Source of the DNA: Acidipropionibacterium thoenii DSM 20276
GTDB lineage: Bacteria; Actinomycetota; Actinomycetes; Propionibacteriales; Propionibacteriaceae
Reading direction: 5' to 3'
NCBI RefSeq assembly: GCF_000423445.1
Contig: NZ_AUHZ01000008.1
Coordinates: 62,001-126,000, forward strand
DNA length: 64,000 bases
The position numbers and the translations under genes are program-made. A model generated the notes under the pieces. The model was not told the DNA's origin and searched no databases. It saw nothing but the letters and a program-made list of their open reading frames with translations. Below, piece by piece: positions 8,517-55,445 of this stretch. Each line of letters opens with the position of its first letter. The first letter of the stretch is position 1.

Positions 8517-10252
8517 GGCCAGCGGCCAGCAGATCGCGGCTGACCGGCTGGGCCGCCGGCCTGACCGTTCTCGCCCTCCTGGCGTCGGGATGCCAGCTCG
8601 GTGGAAGCAGTTCGACACCCGGTGCGAGCGGCTCCGGACCGGCAACCCAGCAGGCCACCACCTCCTCCGGCGCCGGCTCCGGGTCGGCCACCGCGCAGAG
8701 CACGGCGTCGGCCAGCCACAGCTGGTCACCGGCCGCCACCGCGCCATCCGCCAACCCGCCGGTGGCCTCCTACGACCCGGCGGCCCACGCCGTGTTCACC
8801 GGCTACACCTCACCCGATCGCCAGACCCCCGCCGCCTCCCAGGCCACACCCGCCGGCTTCACCGCGGCCCCCTCGGGATCGGGGATGGATCGCTACCTCA
8901 ACCGGCAGATCTCCTGGACCGGCTGCGGGAACTTCCAGTGCGCCAAGGTCGTCGTGCCGCTGGACTGGGACAAGCCGGACGGCCAGGCCATCACACTGGC
9001 CGTCAAGCGCAAGGCGGCCACCCAGCGGTCGGGCGGAGAGCCGGCCGACGGGACGATGTTCATCAACCCCGGCGGCCCCGGCGTCTCCGGCCAGAGCATG
9101 CTCGACCAGTTCCAGGCCGACCAGTTCCCCGGATACGACATCATCGCCTGGGACCCGCGAGGATCGGGACAGTCCACCCCGGTGGCCTGCGGTACCGCCG
9201 CTCAGACCGATGCCTACTTCAACCTCGACTCCTCTCCCTCCGACCAGTCCCAGTGGGACGCCGTGATCGCCGGCAACAAGGCCTTCGCGCAACAGTGCCG
9301 CACCTCCTCGGGGGCCCTTCTGGACCACATCTCGACCATCGACACCGCCCGTGACCTGGACTACCTGCGCCACCAGGTGGGCGACAGCAGGCTCAACTAC
9401 CTGGGGATCTCCTACGGCACCTACATCGGCGCGATGTACGCCGAGCTGTACCCGGGCAGGGTCGGCCGGATGGTGCTCGACTCGGCGGTCAACATCACCG
9501 ACAACGACTCCGTCTCCCAGGTGATGGGCTTCGACAAGGCCTTCCGTGCCTTCGCCCAGTGGTGCGCCGGCACCTCGAGCTGCGGACTCGGGGACACCAC
9601 AGACGGCGTCGTCGACCGCACCGTCCGCTTCCTCGAGGGGCTCAACGGGGCACCGATGAGAGTGGGGCTGCGCCCGTTGACCCAGAACCAGGCAGCCACC
9701 GGACTGGCCTACTTCCTCTACTCGGGCAAGGACTCCTACGGATACCTGGCCGGCGCGCTGAACCGAGCCATCCAGGGACGCAATGGAGCCGTCCTGCTGG
9801 CTGCCGCCGATGCTCTCAACGGCCGCGACCTGGAGACCGGCAAGTGGGACTCATCGGCCTACGCCTTCCCGTCCATCCTGTGCGGGGACTGGTCCGATGA
9901 CGGGCTGGCCGGCGCCCGCCGGCAGTGGGCTGCGGACCAGAAGCGAGCCCCCATCCTCGGCAGATCCTTCGGCGTCGGGCTGGTCTGCACCTACTGGACG
10001 GTCAAGCCCGCCCGGCAACTGAGGATCACTGCCCAGGGAGCGGCGCCGATCGTCGTGCTGGGGGTCACCGGTGACCCTGCTACGCCCTACCAGCAGGCCC
10101 AGTGGATGTCCGACCAGTTGGCCTCCGGGGTTCTGGTGACCTGGCGCGGGGCCGGTCACTCGGCCTGGGAACTGGGCAACACCTGCCTGCGCAACTCCGT
10201 CACCGGATACCTCAACGATGGCGTGGTGCCCAAGGACAGGACGACCTGCTGA
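8513..10252 (+). CDS. Secreted lipoprotein alpha/beta hydrolase (S33, TAP-like)
   Basis: A 579-aa exported hydrolase resembling actinomycete tripeptidyl aminopeptidases. The N-terminus is a lipoprotein signal (hydrophobic core, then LLASGC with the lipidated Cys near residue 25), followed by a Ser/Thr/Ala-rich linker to about residue 125. The catalytic core has an oxyanion segment NPGGPGVSG, the nucleophile elbow GISYGTY, and a C-terminal TAP-like domain with GDPATPY (Asp) and GAGHSAW (His). It probably releases short peptides outside the cell. The start is fixed by the lipobox and by ATGA overlap with ricT. Confidence 0.9.
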   Translation: MRPAASRSRLTGWAAGLTVLALLASGCQLGGSSSTPGASGSGPATQQATTSSGAGSGSATAQSTASASHSWSPAATAPSANPPVASYDPAAHAVFTGYTSPDRQTPAASQATPAGFTAAPSGSGMDRYLNRQISWTGCGNFQCAKVVVPLDWDKPDGQAITLAVKRKAATQRSGGEPADGTMFINPGGPGVSGQSMLDQFQADQFPGYDIIAWDPRGSGQSTPVACGTAAQTDAYFNLDSSPSDQSQWDAVIAGNKAFAQQCRTSSGALLDHISTIDTARDLDYLRHQVGDSRLNYLGISYGTYIGAMYAELYPGRVGRMVLDSAVNITDNDSVSQVMGFDKAFRAFAQWCAGTSSCGLGDTTDGVVDRTVRFLEGLNGAPMRVGLRPLTQNQAATGLAYFLYSGKDSYGYLAGALNRAIQGRNGAVLLAAADALNGRDLETGKWDSSAYAFPSILCGDWSDDGLAGARRQWAADQKRAPILGRSFGVGLVCTYWTVKPARQLRITAQGAAPIVVLGVTGDPATPYQQAQWMSDQLASGVLVTWRGAGHSAWELGNTCLRNSVTGYLNDGVVPKDRTTC

Positions 10253-10402
10253 GTCGGTGGCGAGCTCAGGTTCCGGGGCCGGGGCCCCAGGGTTTTGGGG
10301 CCGTCGCTACCGTTGCCAGTGATCGAGAAGTACTGCGTGGCGTCCGGCTCCTCGACGGATTCTGGCGGACGCCGTCGCGGCTGGCGGCAGGAGAGGATTG
10401 TG

Positions 10403-10726
10403 ATGCCGGGCACCGTGGGAAACAGATGCCTCCGGCTCCTCGGAGTGCTGGTCCTGGTGGGCGTCCTGCTACTGCTGGAGTTCGCATGGCGGGCTCATGT
10501 CCTGGCCGGCCTGCAGCGTAACGATGGTCAGTGCGTGATGGTCGGCTCACGGGTCGACAACGGTCAGGTCCCGGTGGTCTCCTGCGAGCACTCCGGGGCG
10601 CGGTTGGTGACCAGCGTGGTGGGGCCCACTGGCAACTGCCGGTACGGCGAGGACAAGGTCGCTGTGCGTCACGAGATGAGCCACGACACCGGTTACATCG
10701 GTGCGTTGTGCCTCAGACAGCCCTGA
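10403..10726 (+). CDS. Small membrane-anchored LppU/SCO3897-like protein
   Basis: A 107-aa protein: one N-terminal transmembrane segment (about residues 10-30, LLGVLVLVGVLLLLEFAW), then a small exterior domain with four conserved cysteines (GQCVMVG, VSCEHSG, GNCRYG, ALCLRQP). The Cys spacing and the final LCL(R/K) motif match the actinobacterial LppU family, whose function is unknown. The ATG is preceded by AGGAGAGGATTGTG; a GTG one codon earlier is also possible. Confidence 0.65.
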   Translation: MPGTVGNRCLRLLGVLVLVGVLLLLEFAWRAHVLAGLQRNDGQCVMVGSRVDNGQVPVVSCEHSGARLVTSVVGPTGNCRYGEDKVAVRHEMSHDTGYIGALCLRQP

Positions 10727-10738
10727 GGCGGGCGACGA

Positions 10739-10913
10739 CCGCCTGACCCCCGGCTCTCCCTGACCCCCTTCCGGACCCCCGCCGGCCCGGACCTCCGTCC
10801 CTGACCGCGAGCCGTCTGGCCCGTCCCTGGACCCCCGACTGTCCTGAACCCCTGCCTGTCCTGGACCTCCGCCTGTCCCTCACCTCCGGAGCCGTCCCTG
10901 ATCCCCGCCTTCT
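10739..10913. repeat. C-rich degenerate tandem repeats
   Basis: At least five imperfect units of about 17-19 bases of the form GTCCTGGACCTCCGCCT follow one another (clearest at 10830-10910). The plus strand is C-rich and G-poor, so the complementary strand carries many GGG/GGGG runs. Confidence 0.6.
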
Positions 10914-10985
10914 CCACGTTCGTCCTCAAATATGGCGTTCGTCCTGGAATTCCAGGACGAACGCCATATTTGAGGACGAACGTGG
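10914..10985. repeat. Perfect 72-bp palindrome
   Basis: Two 36-base arms are exact reverse complements with no spacer, centred on an EcoRI site at 10947-10952. Each arm contains CGTTCGTCCT twice, separated by CAAATATGG. The flanking bases do not pair. It sits between the 3' ends of two convergent genes, so it may act as a bidirectional terminator, but it is far longer than needed. Confidence 0.9.
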
Positions 10986-11097
10986 TCCGGTGGCTTGGAG
11001 GCTGCGTCAGGTCAGCATCGCGGACCTCAACACGTACGTGGTCTGGTAGGACCCGGAGGCTGCGTCAGGCCAGTACCGCGGACCTCAACACGTCGAG
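10982..11097. repeat. 58-bp tandem duplication of a gene's 3' end
   Basis: The block starting GTGGTC at 10982 recurs at about 11040 with a few substitutions; GGAGGCTGCGTCAGG is at 10997 and again at 11055, and CGGACCTCAACACGT at 11021 and 11079. The inner copy encodes the last residues and stop of the DUF885 gene. Confidence 0.75.
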
Positions 11098-12771
11098 CGG
11101 AAGGCCCCCCAGCGCCAGAGCACGGGTGTGGAAGTCCTTGAGGCTGAACCCTTCCGGGTCGGCGGCGCGGGCGGCGTCGCGAAGTTCGAGCCAGGTGCGC
11201 TCGCCGAGCTTGTAGGCCGGAGCCTGACCCGGCCATCCGAAGTAGCGGTTGACCTCGAACAGGGCCGAGCCCTCGTCCATCGAGACGTGCCGGTTGAAGA
11301 ATGTCCAGGCCTTGTCCCAGTCCCATGGCCCACCGCCGACCTCGGCGGGGGCCTCGAAGCCGCAGTGCAGCCCGATGTCCAGGACCACCCGGGCCGCCCG
11401 CATCGACTGGCCGTCCAGCAGGCCCATGAAGTATCCCGGGTCGTCCATGTAGCCCAGATCGGCCATCAGCCACTCGGCGTAGAGCGCCCATCCCTCGCCG
11501 TGACCCGAGGTCCAGCAGGAGTTGCGACGCCAGGAGTTGAGGTGCTCGCGCTGGGCGATCGCCGAGGAGATCTGCAGATGATGGCCGGGCACCCCCTCGT
11601 GGTAGACGGTGGTGAGCTCGCGCCAGGTGGTGAAGGAGTCGACTCCCTCGGGCACTGCCCACCACATCCGACCCGGCCGTGAGAAGTCCTCGGAGGGGCC
11701 GGTGTAGTAGACCCCGCCGTCATGTGTCGGGGCGATCATTCCCTCGATCCGCCTGGCCTTCTCGGGGATCTCGAAGTGCGTGCCGTCCAGGGCCTCGATG
11801 GCCTCGTCGGCCTTCTGCTGCATCCACTCGCGCAGTGCCGCGGTGCCGTTGATCCGGTACCTCGGATCGGCGTCCAGGATCTCGATGGCCTCGGCCACAC
11901 TGGCACCCGAGCGGATGCGCGAGGCCGTCTGCTGCTGCAGCTCCTCGATCCGGGCCAGCTCCTGCTGACCCCACCGGTAGGTCTCGGCCAGGTCGATGGT
12001 CGATCCCAGGAATTCCCGTGAGGCCAGCCGATAGCGCTGGACGCCGACGGCATCCTGGTCGGTCGACAGTGCCGCCATCTCGGTGCGCAGCACCCCCGCC
12101 GCCTTCTGGAAGGACTGCTCGGCGACCTTGACGGCGTCGGCCAGCTGGGAGTGAAGGGCCGTCGGGAGCTCTCCGGAGGAGGTGGCGGCCCCGGCCAGGT
12201 AGGAGTCGAAGAAGCCGCCGGGGGCGGTCCAGCTCTCGAGTTGCCCGGCCAGCAGGTCGACCTGCCTACGGGCGGGGGCGACGCCGGCTGCCGCGGAGGC
12301 CCGCTGGGAGTCCAGCCAGCCGTCGATGGCGGCCGGTACGGCGTGCAGGCGCCGGGTGATCGTCTGCCACTGCTCGACGGTGTCGGTGGGCATCGCGTCG
12401 TAGACCGCCCGGATCCAGTGAGGGCCCGAGTCGATGCCGTTGAGGGTGAGCAGGTCATAGCCGTTGTCGTGGATCTGGGCACGAAGCCCCAGCCGGTTGC
12501 GCATCGCTGCGACCGTCACGTGGTCGATGTCGTCGACGGGCATCGCCTGGTCGAGCTCGTCGAGGGTGGCCATTGTGAGCCGGTAGTCGGCCTCCAGACC
12601 GGCCGGCGACAGGTCGTCGTACTCGTCCTGGCGGATGTCGAGGCCCAGGTCGGTGGCCGCCAGCGGGCTGGCCTCCAGGCTGGCCCGGTAATACTTCTCA
12701 GCGACCTGGTCGACCGCGGTGCGGGGATGGTCTGCCGGGATCTGGTCGGGGGAGTCAGGAGTTGTCGTCAC
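11065..12771 (-). CDS. DUF885 metallopeptidase-like protein
   Basis: A 568-aa cytoplasmic protein with no signal peptide. It carries the DUF885 zinc signature HEGVPGHH near residue 392 and the partner motif GHGEGWALYAEW about 40 residues later. The family is predicted to be zinc carboxy- or dipeptidases; the substrate is unknown. The GTG start has no ribosome site, but a TAACGT -10 lies 7 bases upstream, which fits leaderless translation. Its 3' end has been duplicated just downstream. Confidence 0.85.
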   Translation of the reverse strand: MTTTPDSPDQIPADHPRTAVDQVAEKYYRASLEASPLAATDLGLDIRQDEYDDLSPAGLEADYRLTMATLDELDQAMPVDDIDHVTVAAMRNRLGLRAQIHDNGYDLLTLNGIDSGPHWIRAVYDAMPTDTVEQWQTITRRLHAVPAAIDGWLDSQRASAAAGVAPARRQVDLLAGQLESWTAPGGFFDSYLAGAATSSGELPTALHSQLADAVKVAEQSFQKAAGVLRTEMAALSTDQDAVGVQRYRLASREFLGSTIDLAETYRWGQQELARIEELQQQTASRIRSGASVAEAIEILDADPRYRINGTAALREWMQQKADEAIEALDGTHFEIPEKARRIEGMIAPTHDGGVYYTGPSEDFSRPGRMWWAVPEGVDSFTTWRELTTVYHEGVPGHHLQISSAIAQREHLNSWRRNSCWTSGHGEGWALYAEWLMADLGYMDDPGYFMGLLDGQSMRAARVVLDIGLHCGFEAPAEVGGGPWDWDKAWTFFNRHVSMDEGSALFEVNRYFGWPGQAPAYKLGERTWLELRDAARAADPEGFSLKDFHTRALALGGLPLDVLRSAVLA

Positions 12772-14966: not shown

Positions 14967-15178
14967 ACCCACCCGCCACGCCACCGGGGATCGTCGGCGG
15001 CCGGCGCCGGACTCCTGAGCGTTCTGCCGCTGAAGGCTGAACCGGGCCGGGAAACCAGGACTGCCTCACACACTGTGCGGCGGTGCCGATAGCATCGGGG
15101 TGCAGTTTCTAGGCCTTGGCGAGTGTCGCCGGCGACATGTGCGACTCATCCCTTCGCCACGACCAGGAGGACATCTTT

Positions 15179-16528
15179 ATGTACGACAGCATCATCATCG
15201 GTGCCGGCCTGGCGGGCCTGTCCGCAGCGACAGAGCTGGTCAGGGCCGGTCGCGAGGTGCTCGTCCTGGAGGCCCGCGACCGGGTCGGCGGGCGTCTGGA
15301 GAATGGCACACTGTCCAACGGCCAGGTGGTCGAGCTCGGCGGTCAGTGGGTCTCTGAGGCACACGAGCAGCTGCTCGGGCTGATCTCCGACCAGGATCTG
15401 GAGCTGATCGGGCCCAGTGACGGCGATCTGATCCTCAAGTTGCACGGCCAGGTGGCGAAACTGCCCGAGACCTCTGAGGCCGAGCATCACCTCACCCCCT
15501 TCGAGTTCGCGGATCTGGGTCAGGGGCTGCTGCGCTTCCGGCGGCTTGCCGATCGGGTGGCGCAGAACCCGGTGTGGACCCAGGCCAACAGCGTGTGGCT
15601 GAGCCAGACGCTGACCCAGTGGATCAGCTCCAACCTGCGCACCGAGGGCGGCCGCTCCTACTTCACCGCGCTGGCGACCAGGGCGCTGGGGGTCGACGCC
15701 GCCACCGCCACTTTGCTGGACAGCCTCGGCAAGGCCGGCGAGGGGGTCGATCTGGAGGCCTTGGTCGCCGTCAATGGCGGTCTCAAGCAGCGCCGGGTCC
15801 GCGGTGGCGTCGCCCAGGTCCCGCAGAATCTGGCGGCCGCTCTGGGAGACGCCGTCAAGCTGTCGACCCCGGTGGTCGGAATCGACTACGACGACGACCG
15901 GGTGGTCCTGGTCGCCGAGGACGGACAGCAGTTCGAGGCACGCACCGTGGTGTGCACCCTGCCGCCCAGGATGCTGCTGGAGATGACCTTCGAGCCGGCT
16001 CTGCCCTCCGAGCGGGTGCAGCTGGCCGGCAAGGTGCCGCCGGGCAATGTCATCAAGGCATTCCTGGCCTATGACTCCCCGTGGTGGCGGCGCAGCGGCG
16101 CGTCGGGCCAGATGGGTGCCGACGAGGGTGCCGTGAGGGTGGTCTTCGACACCTCCGACGAGGCCACCGGCAAGGGCGTCCTGATGGGCTTCTTCGAGGG
16201 TGCCGAGGCCTCCGGCTACGGGAAGCTGTCGGTCTCGCTGCGACAGCGGGCCTTCGAGGAGGCCGTCGAGGGAGCCTTCGGCGCCGCCCCCTCCGAACCC
16301 TTCGAATACCTGGATCGCGACTGGCTGTCGGAGAAGTACACCCGTGGCTGCCACGGCGCCCATTTCGCTCCCGGTCTGTGGACCACCGGCGGTCCACTGC
16401 TGGCCCAGCCGTTGGGCAGGCTGTTCTTCGCCGGAGCCGAGTACGCCACCGCCTTCAACGGCTACATGGAAGGGGCGGTCCGCTGTGGCCGCGAGGTGGC
16501 CACCGAGGTCAACGAGCTGCTGGGCTGA
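15179..16528 (+). CDS. Flavin monoamine oxidase family protein
   Basis: A 449-aa FAD enzyme. The dinucleotide-binding motif is at the very N-terminus (IIIGAGLAGLSAATELVRAG), followed by the GG-doublet DRVGGRL. The C-terminal FAD contact is FAGAEYATAFNGYMEGA. The enzyme probably oxidises a primary or secondary amine with release of H2O2; the substrate is not evident. The ATG is chosen because AGGAGG sits 8 bases upstream; earlier in-frame codons lack one. Confidence 0.9.
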   Translation: MYDSIIIGAGLAGLSAATELVRAGREVLVLEARDRVGGRLENGTLSNGQVVELGGQWVSEAHEQLLGLISDQDLELIGPSDGDLILKLHGQVAKLPETSEAEHHLTPFEFADLGQGLLRFRRLADRVAQNPVWTQANSVWLSQTLTQWISSNLRTEGGRSYFTALATRALGVDAATATLLDSLGKAGEGVDLEALVAVNGGLKQRRVRGGVAQVPQNLAAALGDAVKLSTPVVGIDYDDDRVVLVAEDGQQFEARTVVCTLPPRMLLEMTFEPALPSERVQLAGKVPPGNVIKAFLAYDSPWWRRSGASGQMGADEGAVRVVFDTSDEATGKGVLMGFFEGAEASGYGKLSVSLRQRAFEEAVEGAFGAAPSEPFEYLDRDWLSEKYTRGCHGAHFAPGLWTTGGPLLAQPLGRLFFAGAEYATAFNGYMEGAVRCGREVATEVNELLG

Positions 16529-16623: not shown

Positions 16624-16699
16624 TGCGCAAGGTACTCCGCAGACGGGGGTGTCTGCAGCTGTGGCTGCAGACACCCCCGTCTGCGGAGTACTTTGCGCA
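16624..16699. repeat. 36-bp near-perfect palindrome
   Basis: Two 36-base arms pair with a single G-T type mismatch around a TGTG loop (16660-16663). The arms contain ACTCCGCAGACGGGGGTG. It lies between convergent genes, beyond a normal terminator, 24 bases from the stop of the minus-strand hydrolase gene. Confidence 0.85.
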
Positions 16700-54601: not shown

Positions 54602-55377
54602 GCGCCGTCGTCATCCCCCGGCTTCGAGCCGGCGAGGCCATCCAGCTGCTGGCCGACCATGCGCGACGGCTGGGCGAGGGCACCACCCCCGACTATCTGG
54701 TCGACACCAACCGGATCACCACCGACGACCCGGGCGCAGGCCCACTGCCCGACCCCCATCAGGTCAGTGCCTGGCGGGAGGCCATCGTGGCCCGGCTCAC
54801 CGGCTTCGACCTCACCACCAAGGAGGGCCGCGACGGCTACGGCATGGAACTGGGCCGCGCCATCGCCGAGGTGATCGATCCGATCTGCGCCGACGCCTCG
54901 CACGACGGGGTGTGGTCCTACCTGTCGCTGCGCGTGCTTCCTGACGTGGTCTTCGCCCGCTGGCCAGGCGAGACGATCGTGGGCGAACTGAGACTTCCCG
55001 CCGACCGCTGGATCGGGCTCCAGGGAGGAAAACTGGACCGCAGCTACCTCAAGCAGTCCTGGCGGCGCTGGACGATCCTCGGCGATGTGATGGCCGACGC
55101 GGATCCGCTGTTCGGCGAGACCGAGTTCGGTGCGCTTCTGGACCGCTCCTCACTGGCGCGCGACCAGCGCCTGGTGCGCGACTCGGCCGCGGCGATCCTC
55201 GAGTACGGTGCCGACCAGCCCGGCGGACGGGCCGAGTTCGCCCGCAAGTTCATGAGCCTGATCGCCGCCCGGACCGGCTCGATGCTGCTGGATATCCTCA
55301 CCGACCAGGAGCTGCACGACGTCGTCGAGGAGCAGGCCTCCAGCATCGTGCGCTCCCGCGCACGTCGAGGGGTCTGA
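54598..55377 (+). CDS. DUF6339-like protein, third gene of the GHKL cassette
   Basis: A 259-aa soluble protein. The middle (about residues 100-165, with WSYLSLRVLPDVVFARW and QSWRRWTILGD) recalls the DUF6339 family found beside MORC/Z1-type systems; this is from memory and uncertain. The final SRARRGV and the stop are encoded by the first unit of a 28-bp tandem repeat, so the original C-terminus may have been altered. Confidence 0.65.
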   Translation: MSAVVIPRLRAGEAIQLLADHARRLGEGTTPDYLVDTNRITTDDPGAGPLPDPHQVSAWREAIVARLTGFDLTTKEGRDGYGMELGRAIAEVIDPICADASHDGVWSYLSLRVLPDVVFARWPGETIVGELRLPADRWIGLQGGKLDRSYLKQSWRRWTILGDVMADADPLFGETEFGALLDRSSLARDQRLVRDSAAAILEYGADQPGGRAEFARKFMSLIAARTGSMLLDILTDQELHDVVEEQASSIVRSRARRGV

Positions 55378-55434
55378 GCGCTCCCGCGCACGTCGAGGGG
55401 TCTGAGCGCTCCCGCGCACGTCGAGGGGTCTGAG
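55351..55434. repeat. Three perfect 28-bp tandem repeats
   Basis: Units at 55351-55378, 55379-55406 and 55407-55434 are identical (each starts CGCTCCCGCGCACGTCGAGG). The first lies inside the 3' end of the third cassette gene and supplies its stop. Copy identity suggests recent slippage. Confidence 0.95.
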
Positions 55435-55445
55435 CGCTCAGACCC
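55426..55445. terminator. 20-bp perfect palindrome at convergent gene ends
   Basis: GGGTCTGAGC/GCTCAGACCC joins the last repeat unit to the end of the pyrimidine-dimer glycosylase gene and contains that gene's stop codon. It may terminate both converging transcripts. Confidence 0.55.

Follow-up and report, generated by a model that had tools for sequence, protein, structure and literature searches.

REPINs, as described in PMC3116915, are short and mostly extragenic, have an inverted invariant pair around a variable part, carry compensatory changes, are lineage specific and form clusters that repeat flanking sequence, and in all these respects they are like the palindrome that we describe here; in the REPIN GI unit, the first residues of the two 16-mers are separated by 71 bp (PMC3116915). 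The CGTC-tagged REPs of PMC3733652 share with it a dispersed distribution without a dedicated transposase, a mostly head-to-head dimeric arrangement and a CCA at an end. They differ in having 8-9 bp stems, 4-5 nt loops, a terminal CGTC tag and unpaired tails, whereas the palindrome has stems of ~33-37 bp and its terminal CCA is paired with TGG. Prokaryotic MITEs (PMC10969869) are likewise short, non-autonomous and dispersed and have terminal inverted repeats.

The palindrome lies in the window, the whole 64,000-nucleotide stretch of Acidipropionibacterium thoenii DNA that was analyzed, where it occupies positions 10914-10985. It is a 72-bp perfect palindrome whose 36-nt arms (10914-10949 and 10950-10985) meet with 0 nt of spacer. 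Perfect spacerless palindromes of such length are expected to be unstable. As the initial annotation had stated, the arms are exact reverse complements with zero loop, and CGTTCGTCCT was located twice in each. With base frequencies of A.157, C.336, G.345 and T.162, which make two positions complementary with a probability of ~0.28, arithmetic gives a chance expectation for a 36-pair perfect palindrome of ~1e-15 per 64 kb. Outside the palindrome, 10-mers like CGTTCGTCCT are no commoner in the window than by chance, the whole window holding six matches with at most one mismatch, four of them the palindrome's own, against 4.67 expected. The spacer that contains the palindrome is 338 bp long, and a 143-aa ORF (+) and a DUF885 gene (-) converge on it. 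Taken as RNA, the 72-mer has a predicted fold of -77.2 kcal/mol (z -15). The element, its parts and its surroundings are listed here.

10914..10985, no strand: the element, a 72-bp spacerless palindrome with exact arm complementarity; its family has 19 places in the genome
10917..10926, + strand: outer 10-mer CGTTCGTCCT of the left arm, unchanged in nearly all copies
10927..10935, + strand: variable 9-nt linker CAAATATGG of the left arm, where most copy-to-copy differences fall, mirrored in the right arm
10936..10945, + strand: inner 10-mer CGTTCGTCCT of the left arm, 19 nt from the outer 10-mer
10946..10953, no strand: 8-nt centre GGAATTCC, identical at all 19 places
10954..10963, - strand: inner 10-mer CGTTCGTCCT of the right arm, by motif match
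10964..10972, - strand: 9-nt linker of the right arm, by copy comparison
10973..10982, - strand: outer 10-mer CGTTCGTCCT of the right arm, by motif match
10976..11093, no strand: 58-bp tandem duplication, 2.1 copies, beginning inside the palindrome end and extending to the end of the DUF885 gene
10819..10888, no strand: degenerate 17-bp tandem array, C-rich on the + strand, directly left of the palindrome
10295..10726, + strand: left flanking ORF, 143 aa, no Pfam match
11065..12771, - strand: right flanking gene, 568 aa, DUF885 (PF05960)

Measured against the described systems, the palindrome shows the REP/REPIN features of an inverted pair that forms a hairpin, compensatory changes, multiple copies and an extragenic location. 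Unlike REPINs, it is perfect and spacerless, each arm carries two direct 10-mers 19 nt apart, and no Y1/RAYT gene goes with it. The profile PF01797 (Y1_Tnp / RAYT) found no match in the 99.9% complete, 2.94-Mb A. thoenii genome (G000) and was positive in 5 of 14 genomes, and mobilization by a RAYT was rejected on this absence. Among G000 and its congeners (G001-G004), the only PF01797 gene of the five genomes is at G001:C1:609308-609622 (L139). The GTAG tag of REPs and REPINs is absent from the ends of the copies, which mostly read CCACG...CGTGG. In contrast to MITEs, the palindrome has no clear target duplication, none being consistent among 18 copies and a single weak excess (trim 1, k 3, 0.33 versus 0.21) appearing in ~40 combinations, and no related transposase-bearing element was found for it. 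When 21 nt of the arm were searched through the genome at up to 3 mismatches, the matches fell only within palindromes, and no larger element with such ends was found. The phages, plasmids and viral contigs searched held no match to the palindrome, and a phage or plasmid origin was dismissed on that basis. A search of Rfam with window positions 10000-12000 returned only sub-threshold matches to microRNA hairpins, which we regard as meaningless. The IR/DR ends of Tc1/mariner-type elements, which are eukaryotic, are terminal repeats with two direct transposase-binding sites, and each palindrome arm has two direct repeats too. Given the lack of a RAYT gene, a GTAG tag, a U-tract, a clear target duplication and the traits of CGTC REPs, we file the palindrome in no named family; by analogy it appears to work like a REPIN or MITE, but it fails the defining features of RAYT-linked and CGTC REPs.

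In G000 we counted 19 places with the 28-bp core CGTTCGTCCTGGAATTCCAGGACGAACG, 18 of them exact and one with one mismatch. They are spread over seven contigs and their flanks differ, so that the common unit is the palindrome itself, an element of ~66-74 bp with stems of ~33-37 bp. A covariance model trained on 18 G000 copies and one congener copy found no place in this genome beyond the 19. Nine copies have no mismatch between their arms, nine have 1-5, and the remaining one (L081) has a decayed half. According to gene calls that were mechanical (codon-position GC), with Pfam support for some of the flanking genes only, 18 copies comprise 8 in convergent, 7 in codirectional and 2 in divergent spacers (L066 and L068), the codirectional count omitting the palindrome at L077:5131, which is outside the CGTTCGTCCT family; the last of the 18 is within an ORF start, in the 5' part of a NUDIX ORF. 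Including the decayed copy L081, which is convergent, a hand count gives 9 of 19. Control spacers from the same DNA (15 convergent, 23 codirectional and 8 divergent of 46) have proportions close to these, indicating no clear orientation preference in G000. Reading outward, both flanks are rich in G, which makes up 0.49 of the first 10 nt, and GGGGTG is present in 10 of 40 flanks, a number that includes two L082 rows and two rows of the decayed L081, against ~1.15 expected; an insertion preference or slippage may account for this, and we offer no other explanation. At L070:3813-5272 (G000 C4), ~1.7 kb separate two stretches whose distance in four congeners is 16-235 bp, and this DNA contains two palindrome copies and ORFs without Pfam matches. 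The palindrome at L077:5131-5200 (G000 C9) is of a second type, with the same 19-nt geometry and the motif CGTTGATCC.

Differences between copies are concentrated in the linker, where 6 of 9 positions vary compared with 2 of 24 in the motifs and centre (positions counted by hand; Fisher p 0.0017). The changes are mirrored between arms: an alignment that includes one G004 row contains 9 pairs with 28 cells changed on both sides, which 0 of 500 shuffles reach. These mirrored changes indicate that the arms are homogenized by template switching, by selection on the hairpin, or by both. Gene conversion, which had been put forward as one source of the perfection, agrees with such coordinated changes in both arms across copies. 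Both the creation and the maintenance of perfect stems by template switching have been reported (PMC8794818). The linker types combine variously, and L073 and L075:3970 have arms of two different types, as recombination between copies would give.

Among 198 family-level genomes, a search that allowed up to 3 mismatches found the core only in G000 (19 places) and G004 (2). G001 has one decayed copy, and neither the core search nor the covariance model found a copy in G002 or G003. For most copies, orthologs of the flanking genes are present in the congeners, where most of the intervening spacers are shorter and none has a copy. Between matched flanks, the spacer of the window copy is 335-378 bp long, as against 83 bp in G003, 82 in G002, 61 in G001 and 224 in G004; that of L073 is 283-299 bp, against 44, 38 and 10 in congeners. 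Some pairs go the opposite way because the congener spacer contains other DNA, an example being L066, whose orthologous spacer in G001 is 1034 bp long. The orthologous spacers are too diverged for base-exact empty sites. The palindrome family is young, being nearly restricted to one genome of 198. The initial annotation had suggested a mobile palindromic repeat and a recent origin, and had proposed looking for further copies in the genome and its relatives; both suggestions hold up in that search, with 19 dispersed places in one species, two places in G004, one decayed copy in G001, and the core in only 2 of the 198 genomes.

We scanned 199 kb of G000, 613 kb of G001, 305 kb of G002, 299 kb of G003 and 517 kb of G004 for palindromes 56 bp or longer; part of this DNA was selected because it surrounds orthologs of the G000 copies, and densities are therefore not genome-wide rates. 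The scan gave 48 long palindromes in the five species. For 39 of them, an internal lag of exactly 19 nt gives the best repeat (6-10 of 10 identities, and 10 of 10 in the window copy), always in one register relative to the centre. By genome these number 19 in G000 (18 of the family plus L077:5131), 7 in G001, 3 in G002, 3 in G003 and 7 in G004; the remaining 9 of the 48 have no 19-nt register and are omitted from later counts. The layout common to the class is a 10-mer, a 9-nt linker, a similar 10-mer 19 nt further in, a centre of ~8 nt, and the mirror image. The 10-mer varies with the species, being CGTTCGTCCT in G000, CGATGCTCGC in G002, CGAATGCAGG/T in G003, CGCAGCGCCA and relatives in G004, and CGACGGCATC/CGGCGGCAGT and others in G001. 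The centre in congeners is often GGAATTCC or a near variant, and G002 also has GCTATAGC. The half-site CGTTCGTCC-N10-GGACGAACG, searched through a contig collection from which our own and near records are perhaps absent, gave 33 single matches, mostly in unrelated taxa; we take these scattered matches as chance and rejected a wider spread of the half-site. What is surprising here is the fixed internal register together with a motif that changes between lineages; the palindromic-repeat kind itself is already known.

Palindromic repeats of other kinds are also present in the congeners. An 80-bp hairpin repeat occupies at least 40 places in G003 (40 of 129 candidates were scored), for example L167:3221-3300; it is absent from G000, G001 and G002 and has one weak match in G004, and four of its five copies in the loci examined are within spacers orthologous to those that hold the palindrome in G000. 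Another palindromic family, GAGGGCCAACG, is shared by G001 and G004, with ~14 places in each after rows from the two strands were merged by eye (for example, L179:2735-2830). In G004, a copy of CGTTCGTCC type (716054) adjoins the ortholog of the window gene at 15116-16528, and the same spacer in G000 holds a different palindrome at 16624-16699, which is 76 bp long and near-perfect, lies between convergent genes and lacks the 19-nt repeat.

In three genomes of the genus, palindrome families keep away from the chromosomal region near the terminus. The G004 sequence starts at dnaA, as read from the ORF, and in G001 dnaA is at ~1,145,512. Positions of the G000 copies were inferred via G004 orthologs (L072 and L078 unplaced; L068 from a short match), and the 17 of 19 that could be mapped lie no farther from the origin than 0.62 of the half-chromosome (KS p 0.0008). 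The 14 places of the G001/G004 family extend to 0.49 in G004 (p 0.0007) and to 0.45 in G001 (p 0.0002), all of these tests having been made after the pattern was seen. In equal 200-kb samples of G004, lag-19 palindromes number 6 on the origin side versus 0 on the terminus side, and spacers of at least 100 bp number 83 versus 47; spacer length probably accounts for part of the origin-proximal placement, not all of it. Since families of other design also show the origin bias, it is not specific to the lag-19 geometry.

We put at roughly 0.6 the probability that the palindrome is a young, dispersed, non-autonomous repeat of REPIN/MITE-like kind and a species-specific member of a genus-wide class of fixed geometry. 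Most likely it is mobile, or was so recently, and is kept perfect by homogenization of its arms. Dispersal, species specificity, an exact 19-nt register, mirrored arm changes and absence at orthologous congener spacers are all observed, and the mobile reading also has in its favor that unrelated palindrome families of congeners occupy some of the same orthologous spacers. Against it, retention of the 10-mer could also fit a recent common origin with selection for another function. In the mechanism that we propose, a mobilizing activity would recognize the repeated 10-mer, with two direct plus two inverted sites per element, and spread the copies, the 10-mers in this respect resembling the sites that transposases use in terminal repeats, or the ends of REPINs. 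Through template switching, repair or replication templated by the hairpin would copy one arm onto the other, so that the palindrome stays perfect, and slippage stimulated by the hairpin would duplicate neighboring sequence. As a by-product, the 34-pair hairpin would serve in transcripts as a 3'-end stabilizer. The genus, on this evidence, keeps many long perfect palindromes, renewing their sequence and holding their geometry, which makes it a natural system for testing arm homogenization by template switching and a route to a non-RAYT mobilizer of palindromic repeats.

A role as a strong hairpin at mRNA 3' ends is possible, to judge from the predicted fold, yet as the explanation of the element it seems to us unlikely. 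Here the palindrome would be a selected, bidirectional hairpin that terminates transcription or blocks 3' exonucleases after Rho-dependent termination, and compensatory selection would maintain its pairing. The very stable predicted structure (-77.2 kcal/mol, z -15), the convergent setting of 9 of the 19 copies, the strong covariation between arms and the C-rich sense strand of the DNA to the left of the window copy all suit such a function, but there is no U-tract, the copies L066 and L068 are between divergent Pfam-supported genes and one more is in the 5' part of the NUDIX ORF. Moreover, the orientation of the copies is little different from that of control spacers, the same genes in congeners do without the palindrome, and RNA pairing leaves the exact 19-nt direct repeat and the near-constant 10-mers unexplained. 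The classical intrinsic terminator that had been suggested at the outset was rejected on the missing T-tract (T 0.13 in the first 10 nt outward), the lack of any terminator-like site and the two divergent copies. A geometry conserved through lineage-by-lineage replacement of the 10-mer would imply a co-evolving partner, either a mobilizer or a chromosome-organizing protein. Only tentatively do we extend this to a genus-wide class in which the geometry is kept, each lineage substitutes a 10-mer of its own in step with a sequence-specific partner, and origin-proximal placement reflects the action of that partner. The more specific proposal of a binding site for a chromosome-organizing protein, of nucleoid-occlusion or partition-like type, with four putative half-sites at 19-18-19 bp and a specificity that drifts between species, is highly improbable. 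It would suit the fixed geometry with a species-specific motif and the origin-proximal distribution of families in G000 (via G004), G004 and G001; G002, however, has no copy of the CGTTCGTCCT family, a single genome can have more than one motif, the origin bias extends to palindrome families of other design, and the greater frequency of spacers of at least 100 bp near the G004 origin is a partial confounder. That several unrelated palindrome families lie near the origin is in any case directly testable. An assembly artefact is unlikely, and artefact and chance taken together are barely worth entertaining: the assembly is a draft, but ~1e-15 such palindromes are expected by chance, the 19 places are on seven contigs with different flanks, and separately assembled, single-contig congener genomes hold analogous palindromes.

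Mobility with arm homogenization, the reading that we prefer, includes slippage next to the hairpin, and duplications are indeed seen in some flanks. Outward sequence recurs with at least 20 of 22 matches at 3 of 36 palindrome ends (L076, L078 and L070:5201) and more weakly, at 15 of 22, in the window copy and two others; at all six ends the repeat is 38-55 nt outward. In counts that omit L081, recurrence at 17 of 22 or better was found at 3 of 36 ends versus 4 of 1208 junctions of other copies, at 15 or better at 6 of 36 versus 52 of 1208, and at 14 or better at 9 of 36 versus 139 of 1208. The 58-bp duplication of the window is one example, and we infer that such flank duplications arise by slippage at a hairpin formed during replication. 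Elsewhere in the window, at 55350-55439, a 28-bp unit is repeated 3.2 times with 100% identity at a gene end beside a long convergent spacer.
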